Shown piece after piece: positions 25,229 through 39,145 of a DNA stretch of 39,810 bases. How positions within the stretch are numbered: position 1 is the first letter of the stretch; every line of letters starts with the position of its first letter. Source of the stretch: a virus; IMG/VR virus record IMGVR_UViG_3300029893_000401, positions 1 to 39,810 of that record; one strand, 5' to 3'. The position numbers were made by a program, and so were the translations under genes. The notes below the pieces were generated by a model, which saw only the letters and a list, made by a program, of their open reading frames with translations, was not told the DNA's origin and searched no databases.

Positions 25229-25454
25229 CGGCGCACCACTCCCTCTCGGCTGCCGCGCCATGGGACAGGCCCTCGGCATAGGCGGCGACGATGACCCGCC
25301 ACATGGGCTGGCCCCTGGCCATGTTGCGCGCCACGCTCGGTCCGACGATCCGCCACAGCGCCTCCATGTCCTCGGGGTTGAACGGGAGCCGGCAAAAATG
25401 GCCGGCCGGGACCACCGGCACGGGCGGGCCGAACGGGATGACATGGTCACTCAT
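25221..25454 (-). CDS. Hypothetical protein
   Basis: A 77-residue protein of unknown function between GemA and the Mor-like gene, overlapping both by 8 bp. It starts SDHVIPFGPPVPVV and has a helical second half (MEALWRIVGPSVARNMARG). Two cysteines are present (C21, C74). Coding status rests on the tight overlaps and continuous spacing in the operon. Confidence 0.62.
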   Translation of the reverse strand: MSDHVIPFGPPVPVVPAGHFCRLPFNPEDMEALWRIVGPSVARNMARGQPMWRVIVAAYAEGLSHGAAAEREWCADA

Positions 25455-26121
25455 CGGCGGCCTCCCGGGGCAACGCCCGCACCCGCTCCCCCAGCTCGGC
25501 GATCAGGCGGTCGAGCTGGGCCGGCTCGGCCAGGGCGGCCGAAGGGCAGCGGGTGACGGCGTAGCAGTGGGCGGACAGGTCCAGCGCCGGCGCGTTCCGC
25601 GCCATCGTTGGATCTGGCGGCGTAGCCGCCGGGGCGGCGCCGGCCGCCGCCAGCAGGCGCCACTGGGCGGCCAGCACGCAGCGCCGCGGGTTGGGGTGGT
25701 AGCCCCAGTCGACGCCGGCCCGGGTGGCCCATTGCTTGAGGCCCTCGATCACGGCGTAGGACTCGGCCGCGCGGACCCAGGCCAGGTCGTCGACGCCGTG
25801 CTGGCGCTTGACCCAGGAATTGAGGGCCCTCTCGGAGGGGTCCGAGACCAGTCCCAAGGCGTGCAGCGAGATCCACAGCGCGCGGGCCTTGGCCGCGACG
25901 GCGCCGGCGGCGGGCTTGCGGCCAGGGCCCTGCACCCCGTTGAGGTGGTCGAGCACCTGGTGCAGCTGGGCGTCGGTGAGGTCCGCGGCCGAGCGCCGGC
26001 CGGTCCTGGCCTCCAGCATGTCGCGATAGGTGTCGTCGTCGAGGCCCTTGGCCCGCTTCGCCGCATGCACCGCGGCGAGCAGGGCCTTGCGGCCGGCGGG
26101 GACGGGGCGGGCGGCGGTCAT
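25447..26121 (-). CDS. GemA/Mu gp16-like protein (DUF1018)
   Basis: A 224-residue GemA family member. The signature runs through the first 130 residues: LLAAVHAAKRAKGLDDDTYR, MLEARTGRRSAADLTDAQL and LGLVSDPSERALNSWVKRQ, with VIEGLKQW near 134. Mu GemA alters host gene expression by affecting DNA supercoiling. The C-terminal part contains an in-frame double-hairpin repeat (TPPDPTMARNAPAL). The ATG overlaps the upstream stop (ATGA). Confidence 0.9.
   Translation of the reverse strand: MTAARPVPAGRKALLAAVHAAKRAKGLDDDTYRDMLEARTGRRSAADLTDAQLHQVLDHLNGVQGPGRKPAAGAVAAKARALWISLHALGLVSDPSERALNSWVKRQHGVDDLAWVRAAESYAVIEGLKQWATRAGVDWGYHPNPRRCVLAAQWRLLAAAGAAPAATPPDPTMARNAPALDLSAHCYAVTRCPSAALAEPAQLDRLIAELGERVRALPREAADE
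25589..25630. repeat. Double-hairpin repeat, copy 4
   Basis: GGCGCG-ttc-CGCGCC (25589-25603), a 12-nt spacer atcgttggatct, and GGCGGC-gta-GCCGCC (25616-25630). It is exactly 42 bp and sits in frame in gemA. Confidence 0.88.
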
Positions 26122-26479: not shown

Positions 26480-27151
26480 TCAGAACAGGGTCAACTGCCC
26501 GGCGGCGGGCGCGGGCTCCGGAACTGCCGGTGCCGGCGCCGCGGCTTCCGCGGCATCGGCTTGGGCGACGACGGCCTGGACAAGGCGGCCGAGGGGATCG
26601 GTCGCCGGCTCGGCGCAGGCGGGGCAAGGAACCGTCATCCAGCGGTGGGGCTGGCGGCCGGTGTTGACGTGGACGGGGCCGATCCTGCCCTTGCCGCCGC
26701 AGCTGGGGCACGGGGCCGCAATCACCGGATCTGGCAGGGACGCCCTGGTCGGCGGGCTGGGCGGGTCGTCGGCTTCCATCAGCCGGCGCAGCAGCGCCAC
26801 CAGATCGGCACCCTTGGCGTCGGCCGGGCGCTGCTCGTCCGGCCGCGCCTCGTCCCAGCCGGCCCACAGCTCGACCTCGCCGCGGTTGGTGCGGACGGAG
26901 ATGACGTACCCCTCAGGATCGCCCGGCTGGCCGTAGGGCAGCGCGGTGGCCACACACCGCGCGAACTCGGCCAGCAGCAGGGCGTCGCAGGGCTGGCACA
27001 GGTGCCAGCCGTGCAGCGCCTCGACCGGCTGGCTGACCACCGCGGTGATCCCGTTGGGGCCGCGGTGGTAGTGCAGCAGGCAGCGCCAGGCGGCCCAGAG
27101 GAGGTCGGTGCGGGCCGTGACGATAGCGACGAGGGCTTGGGTTCCGCTCAT
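26480..27151 (-). CDS. Zinc-finger protein ending in a sliding-clamp motif
   Basis: A 223-residue protein with a cysteine pair at 52-55 (CQPC) and a DnaJ-like zinc ribbon CPSCGGKG (148-155) plus CPAC (176-179). After a Pro/Ala-rich linker it ends exactly in GQLTLF. QL[SD]LF-type pentapeptides at a terminus are how many proteins bind the DnaN beta clamp. The ATG at 27151 follows AGGAGG by 5 nt; an upstream in-frame GTG at 27157 overlaps the previous stop but fits the Shine-Dalgarno less well. The molecular role is otherwise unknown. Confidence 0.72.
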   Translation of the reverse strand: MSGTQALVAIVTARTDLLWAAWRCLLHYHRGPNGITAVVSQPVEALHGWHLCQPCDALLLAEFARCVATALPYGQPGDPEGYVISVRTNRGEVELWAGWDEARPDEQRPADAKGADLVALLRRLMEADDPPSPPTRASLPDPVIAAPCPSCGGKGRIGPVHVNTGRQPHRWMTVPCPACAEPATDPLGRLVQAVVAQADAAEAAAPAPAVPEPAPAAGQLTLF

Positions 27152-27153
27152 CC

Positions 27154-27438
27154 TCACCTCCTCTCCCCGGCCCGGGTGACCGCCGCGACCACGGCCTGCC
27201 AGTCGGCGCCGGCGGCGATCGCCGCGTCGACGACGATGGCCACGGCCTCGACGGGGTCGAGGTCGCGGACGCCGGCGGCCGTCGCCGCGGCCTCCAGCCG
27301 GCCGGCCAGGCGGCGCAGATCGGCGGAGGCTGCGACGACCTCGCGGCTCAAGGGTCCGAGCTGGCCGCGGGCGAGTCGGGCCAGGCGGCGCTCGGCCTGG
27401 TGCGTCCGCAGGATGGCGGCGGTCAGCGAATCAGCCAT
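27154..27438 (-). CDS. Hypothetical helical protein
   Basis: A 94-residue, Ala/Arg-rich, all-helical protein (RTHQAERRLARLARGQLGPL, then VVDAAIAAGADWQAVVAAV). It overlaps the GcrA-like gene by 8 bp. Its final codons carry the Shine-Dalgarno of the next gene. The function is unknown. Confidence 0.65.
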   Translation of the reverse strand: MADSLTAAILRTHQAERRLARLARGQLGPLSREVVAASADLRRLAGRLEAAATAAGVRDLDPVEAVAIVVDAAIAAGADWQAVVAAVTRAGERR

Positions 27439-28897
27439 GGGCGGGCTCCGGGTCGTAGATGTCGGCCGCGGCGGCGCGGCAACCGGTGCACAGGCGATGG
27501 TGGGGACCATCGGACAGCATCGGCCGGCCGCAGCGCAGGCAGGGGCGCCGCTTCGGCCGGCGCGGCGGCATCGCAACCGCCGCCGGATCGCCGGGGACGA
27601 CCCAGCTGCCGGCGGCGGTCTTGGCGCACAGCCCCATTTCGGCGGCGGTGTCCCGCACCGCCACCCAACTTGGGGCATGGAGGCGCCGCGCCACCTCCTT
27701 GAACTGCAACCCTTCGCCGATCAACTCGGCGACCCGGCGGCGCTGCGCCTCGTTGGGCCAGCGCGGCGCCTCCGGCGGCGGTGATGCCTTGTGCATGTCA
27801 TGCAATCCAGCCTTCGGCGGGACGGCCGAGGGCAAGCGGGTGACGGCGATGCCGGCACTGGCGGCCTCGATCAGCGCCCGCTCGGCGGCCTTGGCGCTGG
27901 CCGGGGGCAGGCGGCGGACGTGGGGGCGGCGCAGCGCGGGTTCAGCCGTCGCCGGCGTCGGGACCGTCTCCGTCGCCGGCCTCCTCGGCGGCGGCGCAGC
28001 GGCCGAGGCGGCAGTCCTCCTCGGTGGCGTCGACGCCGTGGGTCCAGCAGCACCGATGGCGCGGGACGCGGCGGCTCCGCCGCCGGATCGTTCGATGGCG
28101 CGGGACGCGGCGGCTCCGCCGCCGGATCGTTCGATGGCGCGGGACGCGCCGGCGATGGCCGCCTCCAGCCGCGCCGCGGTGGCCGCGGCGGCGAGGATCA
28201 GCAGCGCCAGGGGGGCAACCGCGGCGGGCGCGGGCGCGGGCGCCGGCCGCGGCGCCACCTTGCCGCGGCCTGGGCGGCGGAAGTCGAGCGCCAGCCAGCG
28301 CGCCTTGGCGGCGACGTTGGCGTAGGGCCGGCCCAGCTCGGCGGCGACCTCGGTCAGCATGCGGCCCCGGGCCTGGGCGTCGATCAGCCGCCGGACCTCG
28401 TCTCCGGTCCACGGCCGGCGCAGGTGGAGGCCGAGCTCGTGGGCCTTGGTGTGGACGGCCTTGAGCGGGCGGCCGATCCGCCCGGCCACCTCCCGGGCGT
28501 CGGCGCCGGGGACGTAGAGGCGGCGCAGCTCGGCCAGCTCGTCTGCGGACCACGGCGGGGCGGCGTTGCGCAGGCCCAGCTCCTGCGCCTTGTAGCTGAT
28601 GCCCGACAGGGTGCGCCCCGGCAGCCGGGCCAGGATCCCGGCCCGGCCCAGGCCCTCGGCGTAGCCCCGGCGCAGGATCTCGATCTCGGCCGCGCTCCAG
28701 CGGTCGGTGGCCTGCCCGGGCGGGATATCGTCACGCATTTCCGTCGCCGCCTCCCCTGCGGGGGGGGCGGACGAGGCCGCGGGCGGCGCGGCCAGGGCGG
28801 TGTCGACCACCTGGAGCCGCAAGCACAGCCGCGCGGCGATGGCCGCCCGGTCGAGGCCGGCTTGGGCAAGCTTGCGGATGCGCGCGGCCCGGTCCAT
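27431..28897 (-). CDS. Multi-repeat GcrA/Myb-like DNA-binding protein with zinc ribbon
   Basis: A 488-residue protein. Three adjacent about 46-residue repeats (66-110, 115-160, 161-207) follow the pattern W-S/T-x3-E...G...L-G-R...A...L-G-L, seen in GcrA and Myb/SANT domains. A fourth lies at 379-425. An N-terminal HTH (4-35) precedes them and a C-terminal zinc ribbon CLRC...CTGC (453-473) ends the protein. The 208-375 linker contains a 13-residue tandem (ASRAIERSGGGAA) encoded by the hairpin repeat array. It likely binds DNA at multiple sites, possibly as a phage regulator. The start ATG at 28897 is 4 nt after the upstream stop. Confidence 0.75.
   Translation of the reverse strand: MDRAARIRKLAQAGLDRAAIAARLCLRLQVVDTALAAPPAASSAPPAGEAATEMRDDIPPGQATDRWSAAEIEILRRGYAEGLGRAGILARLPGRTLSGISYKAQELGLRNAAPPWSADELAELRRLYVPGADAREVAGRIGRPLKAVHTKAHELGLHLRRPWTGDEVRRLIDAQARGRMLTEVAAELGRPYANVAAKARWLALDFRRPGRGKVAPRPAPAPAPAAVAPLALLILAAAATAARLEAAIAGASRAIERSGGGAAASRAIERSGGGAAASRAIGAAGPTASTPPRRTAASAAAPPPRRPATETVPTPATAEPALRRPHVRRLPPASAKAAERALIEAASAGIAVTRLPSAVPPKAGLHDMHKASPPPEAPRWPNEAQRRRVAELIGEGLQFKEVARRLHAPSWVAVRDTAAEMGLCAKTAAGSWVVPGDPAAVAMPPRRPKRRPCLRCGRPMLSDGPHHRLCTGCRAAAADIYDPEPAHG
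28055..28150. repeat. Tandem 39-bp array of double-hairpin repeat units
   Basis: Two identical 39-bp units (28055-28093, 28094-28132) and a partial third (28133-28150) each contain GGCGCGGGACGCG and GGCGGC-tcc-GCCGCC. The array is in frame and encodes 13-residue repeats in the linker of the GcrA/Myb-like protein. Confidence 0.9.
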
Positions 28898-28901
28898 GGC
28901 G

Positions 28902-29096
28902 TCAGACGATCCTGCGCACCGGCGCCCCGGCCACCGCGGCCGGCAGCGCCACATTGGCCGGGGCCAGCCCCAGGATGCGCCGGGCCCACAGCTGGGCCAG
29001 GGCGTCGGGGACGATCAGCACCTCGGTGCCGCTGTAGCGGATCTCCCAGCCCTCGCCGGTGCGCACCAGCTGGGCGGAGGTGTTGGGCTTATCCAT
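28902..29096 (-). CDS. Hypothetical small protein
   Basis: A 64-residue protein. The first half is beta-like (LVRTGEGWEIRYSGTEVLIV) and the second helical. It overlaps the previous gene by 8 bp and stops 4 nt before the GcrA-like start. No family was recognised. Confidence 0.65.
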   Translation of the reverse strand: MDKPNTSAQLVRTGEGWEIRYSGTEVLIVPDALAQLWARRILGLAPANVALPAAVAGAPVRRIV

Positions 29097-29328
29097 GGCC
29101 GGCCTCCCGCGGGATGGGATCGGAGTGGATCACCTCGCCCTTGCGGGGCCGCAGGCCGTCGCTGCAGGCGGCGGCCGGGCCCCAGTGGCCGAGGCGGACG
29201 CAGCGGCAGGTCCGGTGCGGACCCACCGCGGGGCAGGTGGCGACCAGCAGCCGGGCCAGGCAGTCGGGGCAGCCCTGGTCGGCGGCGGGGGCGCGTCCCG
29301 CGCCATCACGCGGGCGGGCGGCGGTCAT
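29089..29328 (-). CDS. Small cysteine-rich protein
   Basis: A 79-residue protein with CPDC at 20-23 followed by C32, CRC at 41-43 and C55, a likely zinc site. Its start overlaps the MazG-like stop by 4 bp (ATGA). A single hairpin A (29290-29304) is encoded near its N-terminus. The function is unknown. Confidence 0.62.
   Translation of the reverse strand: MTAARPRDGAGRAPAADQGCPDCLARLLVATCPAVGPHRTCRCVRLGHWGPAAACSDGLRPRKGEVIHSDPIPREAGHG
29290..29304. repeat. Isolated hairpin A of the repeat family
   Basis: GGCGCG-tcc-CGCGCC is present without a clear partner hairpin, followed by atcacg. It may be a half element. Confidence 0.5.
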
Positions 29329-29669
29329 CGGCCGTCCTCCGCCGGATGGGAGCGGTCCCACGCCTGCATGGCCGCCACCGCCAGGGCGGCGATCTCGACC
29401 AGGGCGCGGCGGTAGCGGGCTTGAGCCTCGCCGACGCAGTCGGTGAGGTGGTAGACCCGCTCGTGCAGCAGACGCTCCCACTCGTAGGGCGTGTGGGTGT
29501 CGTCGTGGGCCGGGCCGCCCCAGTGGCAGTCCTGGCGCCAGCGCTCGGTGGCGATCTCCTGCAGCACTGTCAGCAGGTCCTCGGTCTCCTCCTCGGACTG
29601 GCCGGGGGGCCACATGATGGCGTTGAGGGCGAATTGGCCCTCGCTCACCGGGAGCTTGGCCTCGGGCAT
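29325..29669 (-). CDS. MazG-like/all-alpha NTP pyrophosphohydrolase
   Basis: A 114-residue helical protein with the phage NTP-PPase pattern: LQEIATERWRQDCHWGGPAHDD, YEWERLLHERVYHL, then RRALVEIAALAVAAMQAWDR. The acidic residues could bind magnesium, as in MazG-type enzymes that hydrolyse (d)NTPs or alarmones. The family call is moderate because only the core pattern is visible. Confidence 0.62.
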   Translation of the reverse strand: MPEAKLPVSEGQFALNAIMWPPGQSEEETEDLLTVLQEIATERWRQDCHWGGPAHDDTHTPYEWERLLHERVYHLTDCVGEAQARYRRALVEIAALAVAAMQAWDRSHPAEDGR

Positions 29670-29673
29670 GGCG

Positions 29674-29904
29674 TCAGCCCTCCTCGATCTCGGGTGGCGC
29701 GACGCAGGGGCTGCCGATGGACAGCCGCCCGTGGGTGATCTCGACCTTGACGTAGGCGTACTCGCCGATGGTGTAGCCGTGGCCCGGGCGGATCTCGACG
29801 GCGGGGCCGTACTTGCCCACGACGCGGGCCAGCTCCTGGTTGAGGGCCTTGACGCGGGCGGCCAGGGCCTCGACGTCGGCGGGATCGATCTGGCGGATGC
29901 TCAT
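29674..29904 (-). CDS. Hypothetical small protein
   Basis: A 76-residue protein: a helical first half (VEALAARVKALNQELARVVG) followed by beta-like text (GYTIGEYAYVKVEITHGRL). Its ATG overlaps the previous stop by 4 bp. The function is unknown. Confidence 0.65.
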   Translation of the reverse strand: MSIRQIDPADVEALAARVKALNQELARVVGKYGPAVEIRPGHGYTIGEYAYVKVEITHGRLSIGSPCVAPPEIEEG

Positions 29905-30137
29905 GATCCGGCCTCCGTCATGGGTTCGTGCATCAGCCAGGCGGTTGCCGGCTTGCGCTTGGGGCTCCAGGTGCCGCGATGGCGGAAGGTGCAGACGACG
30001 GGGGAGGCGTCGCCGTCGAAGAGAACCGAGACCGTATGGCCGCTGGTGCTGACCGAGACCACCGTGCCGGTAATGCGCCTCCGGTTGGACGAGACCAGGC
30101 GAACCCGCTGGTCCTTGTAGAAGGGGCAGTTGCGCAT
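29901..30137 (-). CDS. Small beta-barrel (KOW/SH3-like) protein
   Basis: A 78-residue protein. The segment YKDQRVRLVSSNRRRITGTV followed by TVSVLFDGDASPVVCTF has the strand-glycine-strand rhythm of SH3/KOW barrels. It is basic overall. It lies in the middle of the early operon; the role is unknown. Confidence 0.65.
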   Translation of the reverse strand: MRNCPFYKDQRVRLVSSNRRRITGTVVSVSTSGHTVSVLFDGDASPVVCTFRHRGTWSPKRKPATAWLMHEPMTEAGS

Positions 30138-30148
30138 CTGGGCACCCC

Positions 30149-31180
30149 CTATTCCGCCGCCTGGGACAGCTCGCCCAGCGCCCGCTGGACCGACGCCGCC
30201 ACCTCCCCGCCGATGGCCTCGGCCAGCAGGGCGGGCGGCAGGCTGGCCAGCCACAGCCGCACGTAGGAGGGCGCGGTGGCGCCGGCGATGCCGGGGACCG
30301 CCGGCCCGTGCCCGGGGTCGCCGAGCGCCTCGCGGGCGCGGTCGAGATGCTCGCACATGGCGGCCAGCGCGCCGTCCTCGCCGTACATCTGGGCCAGGCA
30401 CAGCAGCCGGCGGGCCTCGGCCGCCTGGCCGGTCAGCTCCTCGACCTGGCGGCGGAGCGAACGCCGCTCGAACGCCGCCGGCGTCGGCTCGACCGCGGCG
30501 AGGTCGAGCGGGATCATCTCCCAGCGGCCGTCCTTGGTCTCGCGGCGGTAGACCCGGATGTAGCGCTTGGAGCCGACCACCCGCACGGCGTCGTCGATGG
30601 CGCGGCAGAAGTCGGGCCAGCGGGGATCGTCGACGGCCATGCGGCGCAGCGCCAGGATGGCGCGGACGTCGACGCGGCCCTCCTGGTCGACCCGGAAGGC
30701 CCGGGTGATCAGGGTCATCAGGAAGGCGTCGACGCCCTCGCCGCGCTCCTTGATCATGGCGTCCAGCACCGCCTTGGCCGCCTGCAGCTCGGGCCCGAGC
30801 ACGATGCGCTCGGACACCGCCACCTGCACCTTGAGCAGACCGTCGAAGGACACGAAGGTGCGGTTGCCCTTGGTGTCGCGCGGCTCGACGCCGTAGTCCT
30901 GGGCGATCAGGGCGTCCAGCGCGGCGATGTCGGCGTCGGTGTGGGCGGCGAAGCGCACCAGCTCGGCCGACAGGTCCTCGGCATAGCCCGCCACCTTGCG
31001 GACCATCTCGTCCATCAGCAGGTCCATGGGGCGGATGTTGGCCAGCGCCACCAGGTCGCCCTGGGCGTTGCGCAGGTAGAGCGCGCCGTTGATGTCGATG
31101 GCGCCCGGCACGCTCCGCGTGCCATCCGAAGAATCTGCGGCGAAGCCGCGGGGGTGTTGCTTGTTCTGGGGCTCGTTCAT
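30149..31180 (-). CDS. DUF3164 protein with C-terminal extension
   Basis: A 343-residue protein. Residues about 27-215 match DUF3164 of Mu-like early regions: ANIRPMDLLMDEMVRKVAGYA, DTKGNRTFVSFDGLLKVQVA, SERIVLGPELQAAKAVLDAM and a C-terminal RRMAVDDPRWPDFCRAIDDA. DUF3164 proteins are often about 200 residues; here about 110 extra residues with a helical character follow (LRRQVEELTGQAAEARRLL). A double-hairpin repeat lies in the N-terminal codons. The molecular function of the family is not established. Confidence 0.82.
   Translation of the reverse strand: MNEPQNKQHPRGFAADSSDGTRSVPGAIDINGALYLRNAQGDLVALANIRPMDLLMDEMVRKVAGYAEDLSAELVRFAAHTDADIAALDALIAQDYGVEPRDTKGNRTFVSFDGLLKVQVAVSERIVLGPELQAAKAVLDAMIKERGEGVDAFLMTLITRAFRVDQEGRVDVRAILALRRMAVDDPRWPDFCRAIDDAVRVVGSKRYIRVYRRETKDGRWEMIPLDLAAVEPTPAAFERRSLRRQVEELTGQAAEARRLLCLAQMYGEDGALAAMCEHLDRAREALGDPGHGPAVPGIAGATAPSYVRLWLASLPPALLAEAIGGEVAASVQRALGELSQAAE
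31107..31149. repeat. Double-hairpin repeat, copy 5
   Basis: GGCACGC-tcc-GCGTGCC (31107-31123), a 13-nt spacer and GCGGC-gaa-GCCGC (31137-31149). The A-stem sequence differs from other copies at paired positions and still pairs fully. It lies within codons 11-25 of the DUF3164 gene. Confidence 0.82.
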
Positions 31181-31195
31181 GTCGGTCTCGTCTCG

Positions 31196-31342
31196 TCAGG
31201 GTTTGGGCGGGATGAAGTGGATCGGGAAGGTCGAGGGCATGGCCGGCAGATGCTCCAGCTCGCCGGCGATCTGGAGCGCGGCGGCCGACCAGCCCAGCCA
31301 CAGGGCCAGCGCGATGCCGGCGAAGGCGGCGAAAAGGCGCAT
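31196..31342 (-). CDS. Small single-pass membrane protein
   Basis: A 48-residue protein: MRLFAAFAGIALALWLGWSA forms one membrane helix, followed by a short polar tail ending FIPPKP. It starts 4 nt after the stop of the zinc-finger gene. The upstream G10 tract would place this frame in fusion with that gene if one G were lost. Unknown function. Confidence 0.6.
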   Translation of the reverse strand: MRLFAAFAGIALALWLGWSAAALQIAGELEHLPAMPSTFPIHFIPPKP

Positions 31343-31346
31343 CAGC

Positions 31347-31616
31347 TCACCCCCCCCCCGCGAAGTACTTGCAGGCCGACGAGGCCGGGTGCAGCTCGCC
31401 GATGCCGCGCGGCGGCTTGTCCCCGCGGGGCTTGAGGCCCGCGAACTCGGCCGCCTTGGCGCACCAGTGGACGGGGTTGCCGGCGGGGACGCGCTGCTCG
31501 CCGCGGCCGACGTTGCGCATGGGCTGGTGGCTGCAGTGGTGGGCGCACTCGCCGCAGGTGGTGCCGGAAGGGCCGTGGCCGGGGAAGTGGGCGTAGGTGG
31601 GCTTGCCGGTGAGCAT
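31347..31616 (-). CDS. Small zinc-binding protein
   Basis: An 89-residue protein with CGECAHHC near residue 21-28, then C52 and C83, plus several His, consistent with a metal site. It begins at a TGATG overlap with the DnaA-like gene. The last codons are GCG GGG GGG GGG TGA, a G10 tract (31350-31359). Small proteins of this type occur in Mu-like early regions; the role is unknown. Confidence 0.7.
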   Translation of the reverse strand: MLTGKPTYAHFPGHGPSGTTCGECAHHCSHQPMRNVGRGEQRVPAGNPVHWCAKAAEFAGLKPRGDKPPRGIGELHPASSACKYFAGGG

Positions 31617-32098
31617 CAGAGGGCCTCCCTGTCGGGCTCGCCCAGCAGCTGCCGGACGAGCGGGGCGAAGACCTGAAGGGCGGCCCTGCAATCGCTGCGG
31701 GCCAGGGCCAGGACCGCCGCTTCGAAGGCGTCGGCCAGGCTGACCGCCAGGCGCTCGGCCAGCACCTGGTCGCCGGTGGGGAAGCTGGCGACCTCCTGGA
31801 CGATCGCCAGCCGCAGCCCGTCGACCAGGTCGGCGAAGGCCGGGTCGCGGGCGCGGATCTCGTCCACCTTGCGGATCCCGTACATCACCGTGGCGTGGTC
31901 GCGCCGGCCGAAGGCCCGGCCGATCTGCGGCAGCGAGGCGCCGGGCATCAGGTGCGAGACCAGCCACATGGCCACCTGGCGCGGCCGGGCGCAGGCCTTG
32001 GCCCGGCGCGGCGAGGTCATCAGCCGCGGATCGATGCCGTAGGCTTTGGCGACCTGGTGCTGGATGTGGGCGATGGTGAGGCGGGGGCGGTCGGTCAT
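31616..32098 (-). CDS. DnaA domain IV-like DNA-binding protein
   Basis: A 160-residue protein. Residues 8-80 correspond to DnaA domain IV: IQHQVAKAYGIDPRLMTSPR, ARPRQVAMWLVSHLM, and the DnaA signature GRAFGRRDHATVMYGI (60-75). No AAA+ ATPase part is present. The C-terminal helical half has no recognised match. It could bind DnaA boxes at the host origin or phage sites. TGATG and ATGA overlaps link it to its neighbours. Confidence 0.85.
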   Translation of the reverse strand: MTDRPRLTIAHIQHQVAKAYGIDPRLMTSPRRAKACARPRQVAMWLVSHLMPGASLPQIGRAFGRRDHATVMYGIRKVDEIRARDPAFADLVDGLRLAIVQEVASFPTGDQVLAERLAVSLADAFEAAVLALARSDCRAALQVFAPLVRQLLGEPDREAL

Positions 32099-32541
32099 GC
32101 CGCGTCTCCCCCGCCGGCCGGCGCCGGCGCGGAGCCGCCCACGGTCACGCCCCGGCGGTGCAGGGCCGCCGCCAGCCGCAAGGCCGGCAGGTCCTCCGGC
32201 AGGGTGACCCCGGCCACCCGGCGCAAGCAGACCTCGATCGCCCTGGCCGAGGCGGCGGCCTCGTTGAGCAGGGCGACGATGGCGATGATCGCTGGCCGCT
32301 CGAAGGTGGCGCAGTCGCGCCAGCCCGCGAACGACTCGGCCAGCGCCTCCAGCGAGGCCGACAGGGGCTCGCCGGCCGGCACCTCGCCCTCGGCCTCGGC
32401 CATCCGCTCGGCGATGTCGGCCAGCGTGCGGCGCAGGATGCGCAGCTTGGCGGCGTCGTGGCGGGCGACCTGCTCCGCCACCGACGGCAGCAGCCAGCGG
32501 TCGATGACAGCGATCTGGGCGCGGAGTTCAGCACTCAGCAT
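32095..32541 (-). CDS. Hypothetical helical protein
   Basis: A 148-residue, almost entirely helical protein (LRAQIAVIDRWLLPSVAEQV, then LRILRRTLADIAERMAEAEG). Two cysteines. It overlaps the LacI-like HTH gene by 14 bp and the DnaA-like gene by 4 bp. No family was recognised. Confidence 0.7.
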   Translation of the reverse strand: MLSAELRAQIAVIDRWLLPSVAEQVARHDAAKLRILRRTLADIAERMAEAEGEVPAGEPLSASLEALAESFAGWRDCATFERPAIIAIVALLNEAAASARAIEVCLRRVAGVTLPEDLPALRLAAALHRRGVTVGGSAPAPAGGGDAA

Positions 32542-32893
32542 GGTTGATCTCCTTGGGCCGGTTGGGACAGGCCTGGCAGGACCGCCACATCTGGGCGGCC
32601 CGGCCGGATGCGGCCGAGAACGGGCGTGACGCCCATTCCCGGCAGTCGGCGGCAGGGATGTCCTCGCCGAAGCCGGGGCACGCGACCTGGTTCATCAGGT
32701 GGCGGCGCACGGCGGCCTCGATCCGGCCGGTCCCGCCCGGGTAGCGGCCCGACAGCACCAGGGCGATGGAGGACCGCGCGAAGCCGATGCGCTCGGCGGC
32801 ATCCTTCACGGTCTGGGCCGCCGCGACGGCCCGCAAGACCGCCAGCCAGTCGGGATCGTCGGACCGGGGTTGAAGGTTCGGGCTGGTGGTCAC
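32528..32893 (-). CDS. LacI-type HTH protein with cysteine cluster
   Basis: A 121-residue protein starting at a GTG that overlaps the previous stop (GTGA). Residues 28-58 (TVKDAAERIGFARSSIALVL then SGRYPGG) match the HTH of LacI-type proteins. The second half has C72, C84, C106 and C109, suggesting a bound metal or Fe-S cluster. There is no sugar-binding domain. It may regulate phage or host promoters; the 18-bp palindrome at 17411 is of the LacI operator type. Confidence 0.72.
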   Translation of the reverse strand: MTTSPNLQPRSDDPDWLAVLRAVAAAQTVKDAAERIGFARSSIALVLSGRYPGGTGRIEAAVRRHLMNQVACPGFGEDIPAADCREWASRPFSAASGRAAQMWRSCQACPNRPKEINHAEC

Positions 32894-33519
32894 AGCTCGA
32901 CCTCCGGCTCCCCGGTCCACACCACCTTGCGGAGGTTGGGGTCGAAGACGTGCTTGGTGCGCTGGATCTGGGGCGCCTTCGGCCCGGTCACCCGGCTGGG
33001 CACCAGGCGGTAGACCGCCCGGCCGCCCTGGGGCGTGCCCGGCTGCGCCTCGACCAGGTAGCCGGCAGCCTTGAGCATCTTGCAGTAGGTGCGGGCGTCC
33101 TGGTCCCCCAGCGGCACCTCCTCGGTCGAGCCCAGCGTGACCAGGTCGGCCGCCGTGAACTCCTTGAGGATCTTCATGGTCCGCCACATCGCAGCCCTGC
33201 CCTCGCCCTGCAGGACGATGGAGCCGTCGGGGCGGACGCGGGGCGTTTCCTCACCCGGATCCATCTCCGGGACCAGCTCGTAGACCACCGTTTCGCGCCC
33301 GCCCTGCCGGTCGATGCCGGCCCGGCGCACGATTCCCGCCGCCTCCAGGCGGTCGACGTAGCTGCGCACGGTGTCGCGGCCGGTCCGCACCAGGCCGCCC
33401 AGCAGCTGCGGCCGGGTGAAGCGGCCGAGCCGGCGGATCAGCCGCCAGGCGCCGTCCTGGCCGACATTGGCGGGCAGCGCCGCCATCGCGTCGGCGGGGC
33501 GTCGGCCGGGGCTTACCAT
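32890..33519 (-). CDS. Double winged-helix DNA-binding protein
   Basis: A 209-residue protein. The first winged helix is at about 27-72 (AWRLIRRLGRFTRPQLLGGL, RSYVDRLEAAGIVRRAG). A second follows at about 112-170 (MWRTMKILKEFTAADLVTLG, ARTYCKMLKAAGYLVE). This arrangement lies directly downstream of MuB in several Mu-like phages. It overlaps MuB by TGATG. Its role may be in transposition or early regulation. Confidence 0.75.
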   Translation of the reverse strand: MVSPGRRPADAMAALPANVGQDGAWRLIRRLGRFTRPQLLGGLVRTGRDTVRSYVDRLEAAGIVRRAGIDRQGGRETVVYELVPEMDPGEETPRVRPDGSIVLQGEGRAAMWRTMKILKEFTAADLVTLGSTEEVPLGDQDARTYCKMLKAAGYLVEAQPGTPQGGRAVYRLVPSRVTGPKAPQIQRTKHVFDPNLRKVVWTGEPEVEL

Positions 33520-34271
33520 CACTGCGCTCCCCGGGGGCGGATGACCGCCTTGCCGGTGTTGAGGGGGCGATCGCCCCAGGCGGCACGGTCCACACAGCTC
33601 CAGCCCTGGACCATCGCCGTCTCCCGGATCAGGTCGAGGTTGGTCGCCACCCGGCGGGTACAGCCGCCCAGGGCCGCGACCAGGTGGTCGAGCAGCTCGT
33701 CGGCCACGTCGATCCCGCCGCAATAGAGCTTGGCCAGATGCCGCGCGTCGGCCCGGTCGCAGGGCAGCGCCGGCTCGAAGGCCAGGACCCGGTTGTGGAC
33801 GCGCTCGAACCGCTCGATCTTGCGGGGCAGCCCTTCCTCCCCGATCAGCACGATGGGCGTGCCGGCGATGTCGTGAAGGTCGCGCACCAGCTCGAGCATG
33901 CCGCGGTCGGCGACGTGGTCGGCCTCGTCAACGAACAGCACCTTGCGCTCGCGCATCAGCGCCTCGGCCGCCTTGTCGACCATGGTGGCAACGGTGGCGC
34001 TCCGGGTGGGCTCACCCAGCTCGACCAGCAGCGCCTCCATCAGGGTCTTGCGCGTCCAGCTGGACCGCACCTCGACATAGGCGGCCTTGCCGCGGAGCTT
34101 GTTGGCGGTGTAGGTGGTGGCCAGCGACTTGCCATACCCCGAGAAGCCGTGCAGCACGCCGATCCCGGGCAGACCGGGGGTGCGGGTGCGCAGGCGCTCG
34201 ACCAGCCCCATCATCAGGGCGACGTTGCGCAGCGGCGCGATCGTCTTGACGTCGGTCGGTTGAATGCTCAT
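33519..34271 (-). CDS. Transposition target-selection ATPase, MuB-like
   Basis: This 250-residue AAA+ ATPase binds target DNA and stimulates the transposase. Walker A GFSGYGKS is at 42-49 and Walker B VLFVDEAD at 111-118. The ATG at 34271 follows GAGGGG at 5 nt. It lacks the N-terminal HTH region that makes Mu B 312 residues long. The open frame upstream overlaps the transposase end and is not homologous. It follows the transposase with a 28-nt gap. Confidence 0.9.
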   Translation of the reverse strand: MSIQPTDVKTIAPLRNVALMMGLVERLRTRTPGLPGIGVLHGFSGYGKSLATTYTANKLRGKAAYVEVRSSWTRKTLMEALLVELGEPTRSATVATMVDKAAEALMRERKVLFVDEADHVADRGMLELVRDLHDIAGTPIVLIGEEGLPRKIERFERVHNRVLAFEPALPCDRADARHLAKLYCGGIDVADELLDHLVAALGGCTRRVATNLDLIRETAMVQGWSCVDRAAWGDRPLNTGKAVIRPRGAQ

Positions 34272-34299
34272 GATCCCCTCGTAAAGTTCAGTTGCGTGT

Positions 34300-36579
34300 T
34301 TAGCCGCGCCCGCCGCTTGCCTCGGCGGCTTTGCCGCCATTCCCGTGATTGGCGCGGGACGCGCCGGCGGGCGCATCGTCTTGGAAGGCCTCGGCGAAGG
34401 CCTTCTGCCCCCGCCATTCCGCCGTCTGGGCGTAGCGCCCGTGCCAGTCGCGGTCGGCCTCGGCGACCGGGCCGCCGGCGCGTCCCGCGCCATCATTGGA
34501 ACTGGCGGCGGAGCCGCCGGCCTCTAGCGCTGCGTCGATCTCCTGCCAGCGCGCGAAGCGGGCCTCCTTGGTCTCGGGGATCGTCGCGGCCGTCGCCGGT
34601 TCGGGCTTGTGCTCGATCACCAGCTCGCGGTGGATCTCGGCGGCGCGGCCGGTCAGATCCGTCGGGACGGCGGTGGCCTCGATGATCTGCGGGTTGCGCT
34701 CCTGGCGGACCTCGTCGAGGTGGTTCATCAGACGCCGCTCGCGGCCAGCCGCGCGCTTGTCGTAGGCCCGCTCCAGGTAGGATCGCGGCACCGGCTCGAC
34801 CTTGGGCTTGAAGGGGGCCACGCAGATCAGGCGGCCCTCCATGTCCTTGACCCACACCTTGCTGGCGTCGGCGATGTCGAAAGCCACCTGGACCTGTTCG
34901 CCGTGCCAGGACTCCAGGTCGGGATGCTCGTAGGTGCAGTTCAGGATCGACACCGTGCCGCGGCTGACCGTGCGCTCCTCGTGCGGCCGGGTCAGGTCGG
35001 TGGCCTCGGCGGCGGTGAGCCGGATCGGCTGCCAGCCCTCGGCGATGGCCTGGTTCCACGCCTCGACCGGGGTCATGTGGCGGCGCCGGCCGGTCTCGGG
35101 GTCGCTGATCTTGGGCAGGGCGCGGTGCGGGCGGTTGTTGTACGTGCGCACCAGGTCCTCGGCCCAAGCGATGAACTCCGGCCACGGCATCAGTTTCCGC
35201 GACCGGCCGTGCTCCTTGAGTTCCTTGCGGGTGATCTTGTGGATCTTCTTGGCCGCCTGGCGGTCCATGTCGCGGCCGAGATAGGTGGGCAGCTTCTTGG
35301 CACCGGCGATCCACAGCGTCTGATGGACGCGCTCGACATAGCCGCCGGCCTGGGGATTCTCCGCCTCACGGTTGAGCTTTTCGACCCCGAGACGGTGGAG
35401 CAGGCCTGTGTTGGCCTCGTCCATCAGCCGGTTGTTGTAGCCCGAGCCGTTATCGATGTACCACACTGCCGGGACGCCGAAGCGCACCGCCATGTAGACG
35501 ATGGCGTCGCTGACGGCGAGCGCGGTTTCGTCCAGGCCGGCCGACCACCCGACCACCATGCGGGTGGCCAGGTCGATGATGGTGGTGAGTTCCGGCTTGA
35601 ACGGGCGATGATGGCGGGGATGCTCGACCTCGGCATCGAACCGGTGGCCGTCGGCCTGGACCACGTCGAGCGGCCACAGGTTTTCGGTGGTGCGGCTGAC
35701 GAACCGCCGGAGCGAGCGCAGCTCCTTCGGGCCCCGGCGGCCGCGCTGCTTCTCGACACTGCACACCTTGGCCAGCCAGCGCCGCGCCTGGTGGTAGCTG
35801 GGCGGGGCCACACCCGGCGGCATCGCGCCGGGCAGGGCGAGATCCTGCTCGACCACCTCTTTCAGCGACCGCTTCTGCGGCGTGCGATAGAGGTGCAGCA
35901 GCGCCGGCCCCCATGGCGGCACGCCCATGTCGGGCTCGGGCACCTTGGGCGCCAGGGCGGCGGCCTTGCCGCCGGCGGCCTGGCGCTCGCAGTGCCAGCG
36001 GCGCAAGGATCGGGCCGACAGGGTGCGCTTGGCCTGGTCGTCGACCTTGGCATTGGCCACCGGCGCCAGCCGCGCGATCTCAGGCGGCAGGGCGCCGCTC
36101 CTGGCCTGGCACTCGACGAGCCGGCGGGCCTCGGTGAGGGTCGAGCCGGCGGCCAGCCGGTCGACATAGGCCAGGATCACCGCGCGGGCGTCCATGCAGG
36201 CGCGCTGCGCGTTAGTCAGCCCGGTGGTGTCGCCGACGATTTCGCCGCGGTCTAACGCGGATGGGAGCGCCCCGGCCGGGGCCATGGCGGCGTTGCCGCC
36301 ATGATGTACTGCTGGCGCGCCGTGCGCGCCGGGCGCCGCCACGGCTGCGGCGACCCGGTGGGAGAGGCGCTCCAGCACCGCTGTCCGGAAGGGCGCCGGA
36401 AGAACCGACAGGTGATATTCGCGGCCGCCGCCGCGCTGGCCCTCGCGCTCGCGGAAGGGCCACGCATCGCGTTCGGCCTTGTCGCGGACATTCCGCTCGC
36501 TGTGCGGCATGATCTTGGGATCGATGCCGATGGACCGTGCCTCGGCCGCCCATTGCGCTGCGCTGCGCCACTCGCTCAT
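34300..36579 (-). CDS. DDE transposase, MuA-like
   Basis: The 759-residue transposase performs integration and replicative transposition. The N-terminal Mu-type DNA-binding domain reads SEWRSAAQWAAEARSIGID...GGGREYHLSVLP. The RNase H core has D310 (VVQADGH), D376 (YIDNGSG) and E416 (GGYVERVHQ); the first spacing of 66 is close to Mu. The C-terminal beta-barrel and helical tail follow. Residues 693-759 are encoded largely by two double-hairpin repeats in opposite orientation, so the tail that in Mu contacts MuB and ClpX is unusual. Another repeat lies in the N-terminal quarter. Confidence 0.93.
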   Translation of the reverse strand: MSEWRSAAQWAAEARSIGIDPKIMPHSERNVRDKAERDAWPFREREGQRGGGREYHLSVLPAPFRTAVLERLSHRVAAAVAAPGAHGAPAVHHGGNAAMAPAGALPSALDRGEIVGDTTGLTNAQRACMDARAVILAYVDRLAAGSTLTEARRLVECQARSGALPPEIARLAPVANAKVDDQAKRTLSARSLRRWHCERQAAGGKAAALAPKVPEPDMGVPPWGPALLHLYRTPQKRSLKEVVEQDLALPGAMPPGVAPPSYHQARRWLAKVCSVEKQRGRRGPKELRSLRRFVSRTTENLWPLDVVQADGHRFDAEVEHPRHHRPFKPELTTIIDLATRMVVGWSAGLDETALAVSDAIVYMAVRFGVPAVWYIDNGSGYNNRLMDEANTGLLHRLGVEKLNREAENPQAGGYVERVHQTLWIAGAKKLPTYLGRDMDRQAAKKIHKITRKELKEHGRSRKLMPWPEFIAWAEDLVRTYNNRPHRALPKISDPETGRRRHMTPVEAWNQAIAEGWQPIRLTAAEATDLTRPHEERTVSRGTVSILNCTYEHPDLESWHGEQVQVAFDIADASKVWVKDMEGRLICVAPFKPKVEPVPRSYLERAYDKRAAGRERRLMNHLDEVRQERNPQIIEATAVPTDLTGRAAEIHRELVIEHKPEPATAATIPETKEARFARWQEIDAALEAGGSAASSNDGAGRAGGPVAEADRDWHGRYAQTAEWRGQKAFAEAFQDDAPAGASRANHGNGGKAAEASGGRG
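34324..34365. repeat. Double-hairpin repeat, copy 6 (reverse orientation)
   Basis: GGCGGC-ttt-GCCGCC (34324-34338), a 12-nt spacer and GGCGCG-gga-CGCGCC (34351-34365). It encodes part of the last residues of the transposase (SRANHGNGGKAAEAS). Confidence 0.88.
34477..34518. repeat. Double-hairpin repeat, copy 7
   Basis: GGCGCG-tcc-CGCGCC (34477-34491), spacer atcattggaact and GGCGGC-gga-GCCGCC (34504-34518). It is inverted relative to copy 6 and 111 bp away, so the two form a large inverted repeat in the transposase 3' end. Confidence 0.88.
36286..36330. repeat. Double-hairpin repeat, copy 8 (reverse orientation)
   Basis: GGCGGC-gtt-GCCGCC (36286-36300), a 13-nt spacer and GGCGCGC-cgt-GCGCGCC (36314-36330). 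It encodes residues about 83-98 of the transposase, between the end-binding domains. Confidence 0.85.
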
Positions 36580-36638
36580 GGCCGCGGCCCCCCGATTCTG
36601 CTACCGTCAGGGGTATTTCCCCCGGTGGAGGCATGGCG

Positions 36639-37148
36639 ATGGACATCGCACAAACCCTGTCCGCGGTCGGTTCGGCCATCGGCACCGCCAACGGTCTGGT
36701 CGAGTTCATCAAGGGCGCAGGCGCGCTGCGCGGCGCGAATGACGAGGCGATCGCGGCGGCGAAGGAGCAGCAGCTTCAGGTGAAGCAGGCGCTCTATGCG
36801 GCCCAGGAAACGATATTCGCGATGAAGGACCAGGTTGCGGAGCTGACCGATCAGGTCAAGCGGCTTGAAGCTCAGCTCGCACAACGGAAAGAGCACGTCC
36901 TTCAACAGCTTGGACCGGGTGCTTTTGCGTATGTCGCAAAGGATGCGCATGACGCGGTAAGAAGCGGACCATGGCTTTGCCAGCCCTGCTTTGAGGACGG
37001 AAAGCAGTCGGTGCTGCAGCTTGCCAAGCCGGATTTCGGCTTCGACGCGTTTCAGTGCCCGCGCTGTGGGGCCGCGGTCCGGGTACCGAACGATCGTCGG
37101 GCGATCATCCGAACCGCGCGCGCGCCGAACCGCTTTCAGGGTTTCTAG
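36639..37148 (+). CDS. Moron: coiled-coil protein with C-terminal zinc ribbon
   Basis: A 169-residue protein on the opposite strand to the early operon. Residues 1-30 form a small hydrophobic helix pair; 36-92 a coiled coil (AKEQQLQVKQALYAAQETIF, then VAELTDQVKRLEAQLAQ); 110-146 a zinc ribbon with LCQPC (114, 117) and CPRC (140, 143). I recall similar uncharacterised proteins from prophages and islands of many bacteria. The ATG at 36639 has GGTGGAG 8 nt upstream; an ATG 6 nt earlier is too close. Base composition is less GC-rich than its neighbours. It is likely expressed in the lysogen. Confidence 0.75.
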   Translation: MDIAQTLSAVGSAIGTANGLVEFIKGAGALRGANDEAIAAAKEQQLQVKQALYAAQETIFAMKDQVAELTDQVKRLEAQLAQRKEHVLQQLGPGAFAYVAKDAHDAVRSGPWLCQPCFEDGKQSVLQLAKPDFGFDAFQCPRCGAAVRVPNDRRAIIRTARAPNRFQGF

Positions 37149-37159
37149 GCGATCTGACG

Positions 37160-37621
37160 TCATCGCCCCGCCCCCCTCGCACGGCGCGCCTCTGCCTCGG
37201 CCAGGCGCTCCAGCTCGGCCGCCTTCTCGCGGATCTGCACGGACCGGATCAGGCTGACGTAGCGGTCGTCGACCACCGCGAACCCGAACAGCTCGGGGAT
37301 CAGCGACAGCAGCCGCCAGTCCCGGGTGGCGTGCACCAGGGCGGCGAAGCGGACGACGTTGATGGTGTGGGTGTCGCGGGCCTCGGACACGTAGGCGTCC
37401 AGCATCGGCTTGGACACCTCCTCGCCCAGGTATTCGCCCATGCGCCGCGCCACCTCGTCGCGGGGCAGGCCGCATTCCTTCAAGCTGACCGCCATGGCCC
37501 GGCAGATGCGGGCGTTGAGGGTGGCGCCGCGGACCTTCGCCTCCTCGAACCGCACCGCCGGCTCCGGCGGCTGCCAGTCCAGCAGGTCCAGGGTGCGGGC
37601 GTCGCGGCGGTCGCGGACCAT
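37160..37621 (-). CDS. Conserved early protein of unknown function
   Basis: A 153-residue protein upstream of the transposase. It begins VRDRRDARTLDLLDWQPPEP, with RICRAMAVSLKECGLPRDEVARRM in the middle and a helical C-terminus. It has the look of a conserved early gene in alphaproteobacterial Mu-like phages. The ordered helices and VARRMGEYLG...SKPMLDAYV could include an HTH. It ends 11 bp from the moron stop at 37148. Confidence 0.68.
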   Translation of the reverse strand: MVRDRRDARTLDLLDWQPPEPAVRFEEAKVRGATLNARICRAMAVSLKECGLPRDEVARRMGEYLGEEVSKPMLDAYVSEARDTHTINVVRFAALVHATRDWRLLSLIPELFGFAVVDDRYVSLIRSVQIREKAAELERLAEAEARRARGAGR

Positions 37622-37635
37622 GTCAGGCCGCCCCC

Positions 37636-37679
37636 GCCGGCTGCGCCGGCAAGCTCAACGATTGCGGACCTGCGTCCGC
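37636..37679. repeat. Double-hairpin repeat, copy 9 (reverse orientation, intergenic)
   Basis: GCCGGC-tgc-GCCGGC (37636-37650), a 13-nt spacer and GCGGAC-ctgc-GTCCGC (37664-37679). This is the only complete copy outside a gene. Its A-stem bases differ from other copies but pair fully. Confidence 0.8.
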
Positions 37680-37719
37680 CGGCGGCTGCCGGCCGGCCGT
37701 CATCCCGGGGAGGGAGCGG

Positions 37720-37776
37720 GTGACGGCCGGCCGGACTTCCCCTATCCTGGGCATGGCACAACCAGCGATAGGGGAA
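37720..37776 (+). promoter_or_regulatory. Moron promoter with inverted-repeat operator
   Basis: GTGACG, a 17-bp spacer and TATCCT (37743-37748) form a weak sigma70-like promoter. A perfect 10-bp inverted repeat, TTCCCCTATC (37737-37746) and GATAGGGGAA (37767-37776), flanks the expected start. One arm overlaps the -10 box and the other contains the AGGGGA Shine-Dalgarno. This arrangement suits repressor binding. Confidence 0.5.
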
Positions 37777-37779
37777 ACA

Positions 37780-38118
37780 ATGGAACGAGACCAATTCGAC
37801 GAGATGCTTCGCACGTCGCCCGTCTTCGCGCGCAGCATGTTCGACGCCCTGGACGGAATCTCCGTCACGTTCATGAGCCTGATCGAACTGCTGGCGGCGA
37901 GGGATGTGGCGACCATCGACGAAATCATCTCACTGCTGGAAGCTGATACTCGGGCTTACGCCGATCGTGCGGAGACGGACTTCAGTCGCCTCGCGGTCGA
38001 GTGGATGCTTCGAGATGTGCGCGAGTTCGCTTCTGACGGCGCCGCGCTCGTTCGGCGGCGGCTTCGGCAGCGAAAGTGGCGGGGACGTAAGACTTATCGG
38101 CGTCGGGCACCTCGCTGA
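37780..38118 (+). CDS. Moron: hypothetical protein
   Basis: A 112-residue protein opposing the early operon. It is acidic and helical in the first 80 residues (ERDQFDEMLRTSPVFARSMF, VATIDEIISLLEADTRAYAD) with a very basic C-terminus (RRRLRQRKWRGRKTYRRR). The ATG follows AGGGGA by 4 nt. Less GC-rich than the surroundings up to about 38100. It overlaps the 3' end of the opposing gene by 137 bp, so its basic tail may come from fused phage sequence. No family was recognised. Confidence 0.62.
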   Translation: MERDQFDEMLRTSPVFARSMFDALDGISVTFMSLIELLAARDVATIDEIISLLEADTRAYADRAETDFSRLAVEWMLRDVREFASDGAALVRRRLRQRKWRGRKTYRRRAPR

Positions 38119-38389
38119 GGGCGTCCTCCGTGAAGCGCACCCCGGCGCCCAGCCGGGCCGCCTCCCGCGCCACGGCGTCCCCGTCGGCGCCGTGATCCAG
38201 CACCACCAGCTCGGGCACGCCGAGGGCGAAGACGACGCCCTCGAAGGCCGCCATCATGGCGGAGCCGGCGTCGGCCGACACCTCGGTGTCGATGATCTCC
38301 CGGGTCTCCAGGTCGAGCACCGCGGCGACGAACAGGGGGTGGCCGGCGATCGCCGTCCGCACCACGTCGATGATCCAGCGCCCGCCCAT
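37982..38389 (-). CDS. Small RNase H-fold (integrase core-like) protein, possibly 3'-altered
   Basis: A 135-residue protein starting at a TGATG overlap. WIIDVVRTAIAGHPLFVAAV, LDLETREIIDTEVS and FALGVPELVVLDHGADGDAV follow the integrase core layout: a first Asp in WIID, a strand pair, and a second Asp in VLDHGAD. The third acidic residue is not evident, and no DNA-binding domain is present. The last 36 or so codons lie opposite the moron and read as charged, low-order sequence, so the original 3' end may have been replaced. Confidence 0.52.
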   Translation of the reverse strand: MGGRWIIDVVRTAIAGHPLFVAAVLDLETREIIDTEVSADAGSAMMAAFEGVVFALGVPELVVLDHGADGDAVAREAARLGAGVRFTEDALSEVPDADKSYVPATFAAEAAAERARRRQKRTRAHLEASTRPRGD

Positions 38390-38820
38390 CACGCGGTCCT
38401 CCGCTCGGGGGCCGGCTCGGGATAGGCCAGCCAGGCCCACTCCGCGTACAGCTCCAGCGCGCGCTCGAACAGCGGGTCGCCGTCGCGGCGGCGGCCGGTG
38501 GCGTCCAGCTCGCGGTCCAGGGCGTCGATCTCGCGCCGCAGGCGACAGGCCGCCTGCTGGCGCAGCAGCGCCTCCAGCCGCTCCACCAGCCGGGCCAGGA
38601 TGGCCGAGGCCACGCCCCCGACCCGCTCGCCCCTGGCCAGCTTGTCCAGAGCGTCGAGGTACTGGCGCGTCTCCTCGCCCTTCGGCGTCCGCACGGGGCG
38701 CCCGGCCGCCTTGGCGACCCGGTGGCTGGCGATGGTGCGGATCGACCGCACGTTGAAGCCCTGCGACCTGGCGTCGGCCAGGACGTCGGCGATTTCGGTT
38801 TCGATGGTGGCTGTGGTCAT
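38389..38820 (-). CDS. GapR-like early protein
   Basis: A 143-residue protein. Residues 8-52 (IADVLADARSQGFNVRSIRT, then ETRQYLDALDKL) match the pattern of GapR/DUF2312, the alphaproteobacterial nucleoid protein that binds overtwisted DNA. The C-terminal part is helical (ILARLVERLEALLRQQAACR) and extra compared with GapR (about 90 residues). The ATG is 1 nt from the ner-like stop; an in-frame upstream Met overlaps that gene and is less likely. Confidence 0.55.
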   Translation of the reverse strand: MTTATIETEIADVLADARSQGFNVRSIRTIASHRVAKAAGRPVRTPKGEETRQYLDALDKLARGERVGGVASAILARLVERLEALLRQQAACRLRREIDALDRELDATGRRRDGDPLFERALELYAEWAWLAYPEPAPERRTA

Positions 38821-38821
38821 G

Positions 38822-39145
38822 TCAGGCTGCCTCCCCGCTTTGGACATTGCCCGCCCTGCGCCGCGTGGTACGCTGTGGTTCGCGCGTCCAGTGCAGCCGG
38901 TTGCCCGCGTCGTCGAACCGCTCGGGGAACAGCTGCCGGGGCGTGAGGCCCAGGGCCTCGGCGATGACCGCCTCCAGGTAGGACGAGGGTGCGGTCAGCG
39001 CGTGGCTCATGGCCTGCTGGGACACCCCCGCCTCGCCGGCCAGCCGGCGCAGCGAGGTGCCCCGAAGGCGCAACTGACCGACGACCCACACCCGCCGCTC
39101 GGCGGGGTTTTTCGGGACGCAGCGTCTTGTAGGTACGGTGGACAT
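38822..39145 (-). CDS. ner: Ner-like DNA-binding protein
   Basis: A 107-residue Ner/Nlp family protein. The HTH is TSLRRLAGEAGVSQQAMSHA followed by SSYLEAVIAEALGLTPRQLF, the Ner signature. It is the first early gene, as in Mu, where Ner represses early and repressor promoters after induction. The ATG at 39145 is preceded at the right distance by a promoter, so the mRNA would begin at or next to the ATG without a Shine-Dalgarno. An upstream in-frame ATG at 39196 lies above the promoter and is excluded. Confidence 0.85.
   Translation of the reverse strand: MSTVPTRRCVPKNPAERRVWVVGQLRLRGTSLRRLAGEAGVSQQAMSHALTAPSSYLEAVIAEALGLTPRQLFPERFDDAGNRLHWTREPQRTTRRRAGNVQSGEAA

Follow-up and report, generated by a model that had tools for sequence, protein, structure and literature searches.

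We have analysed a 39,810-base stretch of viral DNA, the IMG/VR record IMGVR_UViG_3300029893_000401 at its full length (hereafter the window), with particular regard to a putative late transcription activator of the Mor/C type known from phage Mu, and to the short C-terminal tail of this protein, which is predicted to bind the sliding clamp (beta clamp) of the host replication machinery. The window, which comprises the whole virus record, is a complete Mu-like transposable phage, an assignment made from the presence, in this order and on the minus strand, of genes for MuA, MuB, a DUF3164 protein, GemA and the Mor-type activator. Window genes cited below lie on the minus strand unless stated otherwise. 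The MuA transposase is encoded at 34300-36579 (PF09299, 4.3e-18; PF02316, 9.7e-8), the MuB ATPase at 33519-34271 (PF13401, 2.5e-19), the DUF3164 early protein, of a kind frequent in Mu-like phages, at 30149-31180 (PF11363, 1.1e-59), and GemA, of the Mu gp16 family, at 25447-26121 (PF06252, 3.5e-33). Scans of viral contigs with single proteins (MuA, and the GapR-like and Myb-like proteins described below) found no relatives, and relatives were thereafter gathered through MuA alignments; Rhizobium phage RR1-A was set aside as a comparison, as it is not Mu-like. Among the loci compared, RcapMu was the closest overall, and the MuA of the window shared no more than about 46% identity, over the best aligned segment, with that of any relative found.

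The Mor-type activator and its C-terminal tail

The Mor-type protein (130 amino acids, 24836-25228) is the product of the last early gene, which follows the GemA gene and precedes the next gene block. It matched phrog_836, 'late transcriptional activator', at 7.2e-12 over residues 25-129, and was 50-53% identical to homologues in Inquilinus limosus prophages, which makes an alphaproteobacterial host likely. PF08765 was matched by 51 of 63 aligned relatives and not by the window protein itself. Also, a Foldseek search with its AlphaFold2 (AF2) model gave no significant match, the structure 1rr7 appearing only at an E-value of 4.3, so that membership in the Mor family rests on sequence and gene order. 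By these criteria the protein resembles the Mor/C family of phage Mu (PF08765, phrog_836, phrog_532) as a helix-turn-helix (HTH) activator encoded after GemA, and differs from it in being a divergent member, below Pfam detection. In the AF2 model the last helix stops at residue 119 and is followed by an unstructured tail ending in HQPGLFD. The clamp-binding-like motif QPGLF occupies residues 125-129, with its codons at 24842-24856. Exactly two proteins of the window carry such a motif at the C-terminus, this one and a 223-residue early protein that ends in QLTLF. Judged by a motif of the QL[SD]LF or QLxLxL kind in a flexible terminus, both qualify as candidate clamp clients.

We observed that the motif is a recurrent property of the family. 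QxxLF was present within the last 20 residues of 70 of 128 non-redundant Mor proteins, as compared with 0.66 expected after shuffling of the tails, and was found in none of the GemA, MuA, MuB or Ner tails. When isolate phages were added and the last 22 residues considered, QxxLF was seen in 86 and a strict clamp motif in 103 of 151 Mor proteins. After clustering at 40% identity, which was done on the Mor sequence without the tail and with one representative kept per cluster, 14 of 23 representatives retained the motif (0.5 expected). A scan of the loci for QxxLF in the last 16 residues returned six rows, of which those from D3112, B3 and the window were Mor genes; the remaining three, out of about 3,050 genes in these loci that do not encode Mor (~0.1%), comprised the QLTLF protein of the window and two near-identical rows.

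The composition and placement of the motif were similarly informative. Across the Mor tails, motif positions 2 and 3 favour L and D, in agreement with the bacterial clamp consensus, QL(S/D)LF (PMC9690074). When 63 Mor proteins (mean identity 21%) were aligned, eight columns proved to be conserved at 90% or more, the motif's L and F being two of them, and the linker that precedes the motif was variable in length. In phage Mu, Mor ends in QYQPSLL (motif QPSLL) and C ends in RRHQPDLFSPETPK (motif QPDLF); the tails of B3 and D3112 carry QLGLF and QSTLF, respectively. The motif occurs as well in phages of Vibrio, Shewanella, Pasteurella, Ochrobactrum, Pseudomonas and Faecalibacterium, and extends to transposable phages of Firmicutes (QMSLL in Mushu; NQLALFD at the end of the Bacillus BalMu-1 protein). 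As a control, we used Mor-fold proteins of Paraclostridium plasmids, where no transposable-phage genes were present in the stretches read: five complete proteins stop directly after the HTH, with no tail, from which it follows that the tail is not part of the Mor fold. In the aggregate, the conservation of the motif, its position, the variable linker, the unstructured state predicted for the tail and its absence from the plasmid proteins suggest that a short docking peptide has been added to an HTH activator, and the late-gene activators of Mu-like phages, those of Mu included, nearly all end in a peptide predicted to bind the clamp.

A separate observation concerns the opposite end of the C-type activators, some of which also start with QxxLF: the C protein of Mu (locus L169, 3964-4386) begins with MQHDLF and that of Pmp9 (L186, 592-1020) with KQDDLF. 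Such proteins may possess two clamp-binding ends.

In the main rival reading, the conserved tail would contact RNA polymerase, at sigma region 4, the C-terminal domain of the alpha subunit or some other surface, and would only resemble a clamp motif. Activation by Mor does depend on the alpha and sigma C-terminal domains (PMC4287176), and additional Mor and C structures have been deposited (9l0y, 9l0x, 9vw8). Yet the tail consensus is that of the bacterial clamp clients, including their pentapeptide and hexapeptide variants (QLDLF, QMSLL, QLSLPGL, QLNLNFF), the linker is not of fixed length, and the plasmid Mor-fold proteins do entirely without the tail, which places it outside the fold. We consider a polymerase contact unlikely on these grounds.

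The second protein of the window with a C-terminal motif, encoded at 26480-27151, is an orphan of 223 amino acids with CxxC pairs that ends exactly in QLTLF and had no match in Pfam or PHROGs. A clamp-motif protein had been listed, unnamed, in the initial annotation of the window as part of a group of early regulators at 27431-38820; equating it with this gene, which lies outside that interval, is our own identification, and with this understanding the claim is borne out. Another candidate is the phrog_2345 regulator encoded upstream of MuA (37160-37621; 8.6e-39), with the N-terminal sequence RTLDLLDW. Among the N-termini of phrog_2345 proteins, the QLxLxF type (QLALNF and QLGFTF, for example) was present in 15 of 92, as compared with 0.1 after shuffling, and the TLDLF type in many more; the case for a clamp motif is weaker here because the Q is often replaced. 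Both kinds of protein may be further clamp clients. One could also suppose that the Mor-type and QLTLF proteins act in replication and not in transcription, by filling the clamp cleft and thereby slowing host replication or by steering the transposition machinery to forks, and the clamp-like N-termini of phrog_2345 proteins, beside MuA, as well as the DnaA modules of the same operons described below, would fit with such a role. The motif is nevertheless conserved most in a transcription activator, where it is joined to the DNA-binding domain, and we regard a replication role of this sort as improbable.

DnaA modules and the putative cell-cycle regulators

The initial annotation had proposed that one early operon encodes a GapR-like, a DnaA domain IV, a GcrA/Myb-like and a clamp-motif protein, with a Dam-type adenine methylase at the late end, and that such phage versions of regulators from the DnaA-GcrA-GapR-CcrM cell-cycle circuit of Caulobacter-type bacteria may retime host replication or read host methylation to control induction. 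Of the three families tested by profile searches, DnaA domain IV scored well above its cut-off, GapR marginally above and GcrA below. The single-operon arrangement is only loosely right, since the GapR-like gene is upstream of MuA, the other calls are downstream of MuB, and plus-strand genes intervene.

The DnaA call was confirmed. The protein encoded at 31616-32098 is a stand-alone DnaA domain IV, the HTH that binds DnaA boxes, and matched PF08299 at 3.6e-24 (85 bits against a cut-off of 31.5) and domain IV of Escherichia coli DnaA (1j1v) at 5.6e-15 by phmmer. Its 160 residues include the whole domain, with the ARPRQ and RDHxT signatures, which hold the box-reading residues, common to both proteins. 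Unlike DnaA, it lacks the AAA+ domain and domain I, has RDHAT in place of RDHTT, and is fused to a C-terminal extension of about 65 residues; with a TIGR00362 score of 85.9 bits against a cut-off of 343.9 and domain IV alone, it was rejected as a full initiator. DnaA domain IV was encoded in 16 of the 133 Mu-like loci that hold MuA, GemA and Mor, in every case between MuB and GemA and in many immediately before GemA; in RS1, a transposable phage of Rhodovulum, the same small HTH gene immediately precedes it. In two Inquilinus transposable prophages (L153, 15435-15920; L152, 8132-8629), we found instead a protein with DnaA domain I (PF11638, 6.8e-8 and 2.3e-7, both above cut-off), encoded within the stretch that holds domain IV in other Mu-like phages of Alphaproteobacteria. 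Together, the domain IV genes of the 16 loci and the domain I genes of the Inquilinus prophages establish DnaA modules near GemA as a repeated pattern. Most likely, the domain IV protein competes with host DnaA at its boxes. The phage itself contains no TTATNCACA, and in a scan of the window near-matches to TTATCCACA and TTGTCCACA were within expectation, those to TGATCCACA being just mildly above it.

The GapR-like call stood only in part. The helical protein concerned (143 amino acids, 38389-38820; frame searched, 38389-38847) matched PF10073 at 2.3e-5, a borderline 24.3 bits against a cut-off of 22.6, over profile positions 20-55 of 72 only, and scored 17.7 bits against a required 140 with the NCBIfam GapR model. 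It corresponds to the middle half of the GapR domain, without the long N-terminal dimer helix, and a single-sequence AF2 model of it has five helices (predicted local distance difference test score, pLDDT, of 90). No GapR was found for it in the PDB by sequence, nor in a Foldseek search with the predicted fold, which matched nothing there (best E-value 0.9). The DNA-contacting basic residues of GapR are K34, K42, K49, K56, K59, K60, R63 and K66 (PMC7373187, PMC7498317); in a hand alignment anchored on F53=F22, positions 49, 56 and 59 of the window protein are Arg and the structural R65 is retained, while positions 34, 42, 60, 63 and 66 are non-basic. What the protein shares with GapR (PF10073) is a single segment about the loop preceding helix 2, in which several basic positions are retained; it has half of the domain and a different modelled fold. 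The partial profile match, the NCBIfam score and the lack of a GapR fold led us to reject it as a true GapR. True GapR genes do occur in about four other Mu-like loci (L144, 13682-13930; L060, 10458-10778; L135, 16412-16675; and the record of L028).

For the putative GcrA/Myb-like protein (27431-28897), the multiple repeats were confirmed and the GcrA identity was not. It contains four to five HTH/Myb-like repeats and a C-terminal zinc finger, CLRCGRPMLSDGPHHRLCTGC; its best family was phrog_323, 'D5-like' (1.2e-30), with phrog_13335 also matched (7e-10). The match to PF07750 (0.0017; 19.2 bits against a cut-off of 26.9; frame searched, 27431-28954) covered positions 2-47 of 155, and the C-terminal C..P.G...FCG region of GcrA, which we saw in Caulobacter GcrA and in locus L042, was absent, a different zinc finger standing in its place. 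We therefore rejected GcrA identity; a phrog_323-like protein with multiple HTHs and a zinc finger is the more fitting description. It differs in this from the GcrA homologue of phage phiCbK, which is reported to belong to the GcrA family and has been suggested to influence the host cell cycle (PMC3556154). In L042 (9532-10756), a Mu-like phage, a true GcrA (7ye1-like, 2.2e-14) is encoded almost adjacent to a DnaA domain IV, which is the pairing that the initial annotation had anticipated for the window.

The methylase (151-960) is indeed of the D12/Dam type and lies at the far end of the contig; it has the catalytic DSPY and matched PF02086 at 2.3e-21. Its TIGR00571 score of 79.6 bits falls short of the cut-off of 114.85, so that it is of the D12 class without being assigned to Dam. 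CcrM, a beta-class N6/N4 methylase that acts on GANTC, was rejected by the same class assignment. GANTC itself was depleted in the window (22 occurrences against 80 expected from an order-2 model). Other palindromes of this form, TCNGA, AGNCT and CTNAG, were equally depleted, so that the depletion is merely consistent with a CcrM-bearing host.

The circuit as such finds no support in these results. A phage-borne copy of it, retiming the host or reading host methylation, would be in keeping with the genuine DnaA domain IV and with the true GcrA (in one locus) and GapR genes of other Mu-like phages. However, the GcrA and GapR calls of the window fail, the methylase is of another class, and the statistics for DnaA boxes and GANTC give no sign of regulatory sites. 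DnaA domain IV, GcrA and GapR, moreover, so rarely occur together in Mu-like loci (a single locus pairs DnaA domain IV with a true GcrA) that they do not form a cell-cycle module. Such a model now appears very improbable. What remains of it is a link to host replication, through DnaA domain IV and the clamp motif. It is also conceivable, at slightly less than even odds and compatibly with a clamp-binding tail, that the operon is a mosaic in which the DnaA, GapR-like and Myb-like genes share no function and represent unrelated DNA-binding cargo: of the small early genes located between MuB and GemA, most are without relatives across about 160 loci, and the three kinds occur independently of one another. 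The constant placement of domain IV between MuB and GemA, with domain I in the same stretch in Inquilinus prophages, argues instead for a repeated choice.

Three further genes were noted upstream of, or next to, MuA. Two are plus-strand genes within the minus-strand early region, a phrog_1244 member identified by its PHROGs match (36537-37148) and an orphan (37720-38118). The third, on the minus strand (37982-38389), encodes a 135-residue protein that resembles a miniature MuA in two collinear pieces, one matching the core of the transposase where it surrounds the second catalytic Asp and the other matching domain III at the C-terminus (RRRQKR region); these matches are weak, yet recur across many MuA proteins. 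The protein could be a dominant-negative regulator.

Proposed clamp-coupled late transcription and its relation to known systems

Phage Mu is replicated through transposition by MuA and MuB with the aid of the host replisome, and loaded beta clamps are left on the new DNA. Should the same occur here, the tail of the Mor-type protein would dock in the peptide cleft of host clamps on freshly copied phage DNA, and these clamps would concentrate Mor or C near the late promoters of replicating templates, thereby coupling late transcription to replicative transposition. A second and weaker arm would be formed by the DnaA domain IV protein, which would bind host DnaA boxes, compete with DnaA and restrain host initiation. 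Late genes of Mu are expressed once replication has started (PMC4461284).

We thus favour the reading that the Mor activator, by means of a clamp-docking tail, ties late transcription to replication in this phage, and that its early operon touches host replication at several points without being a copy of the Caulobacter cell cycle; from sequence and models, we give this a probability of about 0.58. Several observations weigh against it. About one third of the Mor family is off the strict pattern (EPDLF, TPDLF, QMSLI, KLTLF), many such tails being near-variants (EPDLF, TPDLF, QMSLI, QLSLPGL) and a few having nothing that resembles the motif; the window's own QPGLF carries P rather than L at position 2; and Mor sequences are related, so that the counts given above are not independent. 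The DnaA arm is affected by the absence of a clear enrichment of DnaA boxes in the phage. Also, Mor activates the Pm promoter in vitro with RNA polymerase, in a report that does not mention the clamp (PMC4287176). The clamp is for this reason probably not strictly required, and would in that case serve as a recruiter in vivo and not as an essential component.

A broader proposal, which we advance tentatively and hold to be somewhat less probable than its application to the window, is that the host sliding clamp serves transposable phages in general, Mu among them, as a co-activator of middle and late transcription, with Mor and C recruited to fresh DNA through their C-terminal peptides, convergently with T4. 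In the open-access literature, we found neither a description of the tail motif of Mor or C nor any paper that links either protein to the sliding clamp. If correct, the proposal would turn the coupling of late expression to replication into a general rule among transposable phages, and would explain the timing of late genes to replication by a five-residue element that is easy to mutate in phage Mu. The DnaA domains I and IV encoded near GemA suggest that contact with host replication is a more widespread habit.

To our knowledge, T4 provides the only well-established example of a sliding clamp that acts as a transcription activator. There, gp33 and gp55 bind the clamp, gp45, through C-terminal peptides and so couple late transcription to replication (PMC9690074). 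The Mu-like case would be similar to T4 in that an activator carries a C-terminal peptide for the sliding clamp and late transcription is coupled to replication. It would differ in that the clamp is that of the host, the predicted clamp-binding partner is a promoter-bound HTH activator of another family, and neither a phage clamp nor a phage sigma factor takes part. Clamp-coupled late transcription is thus already known from T4, and what would be new is its use of an unrelated activator family together with the clamp of the host.

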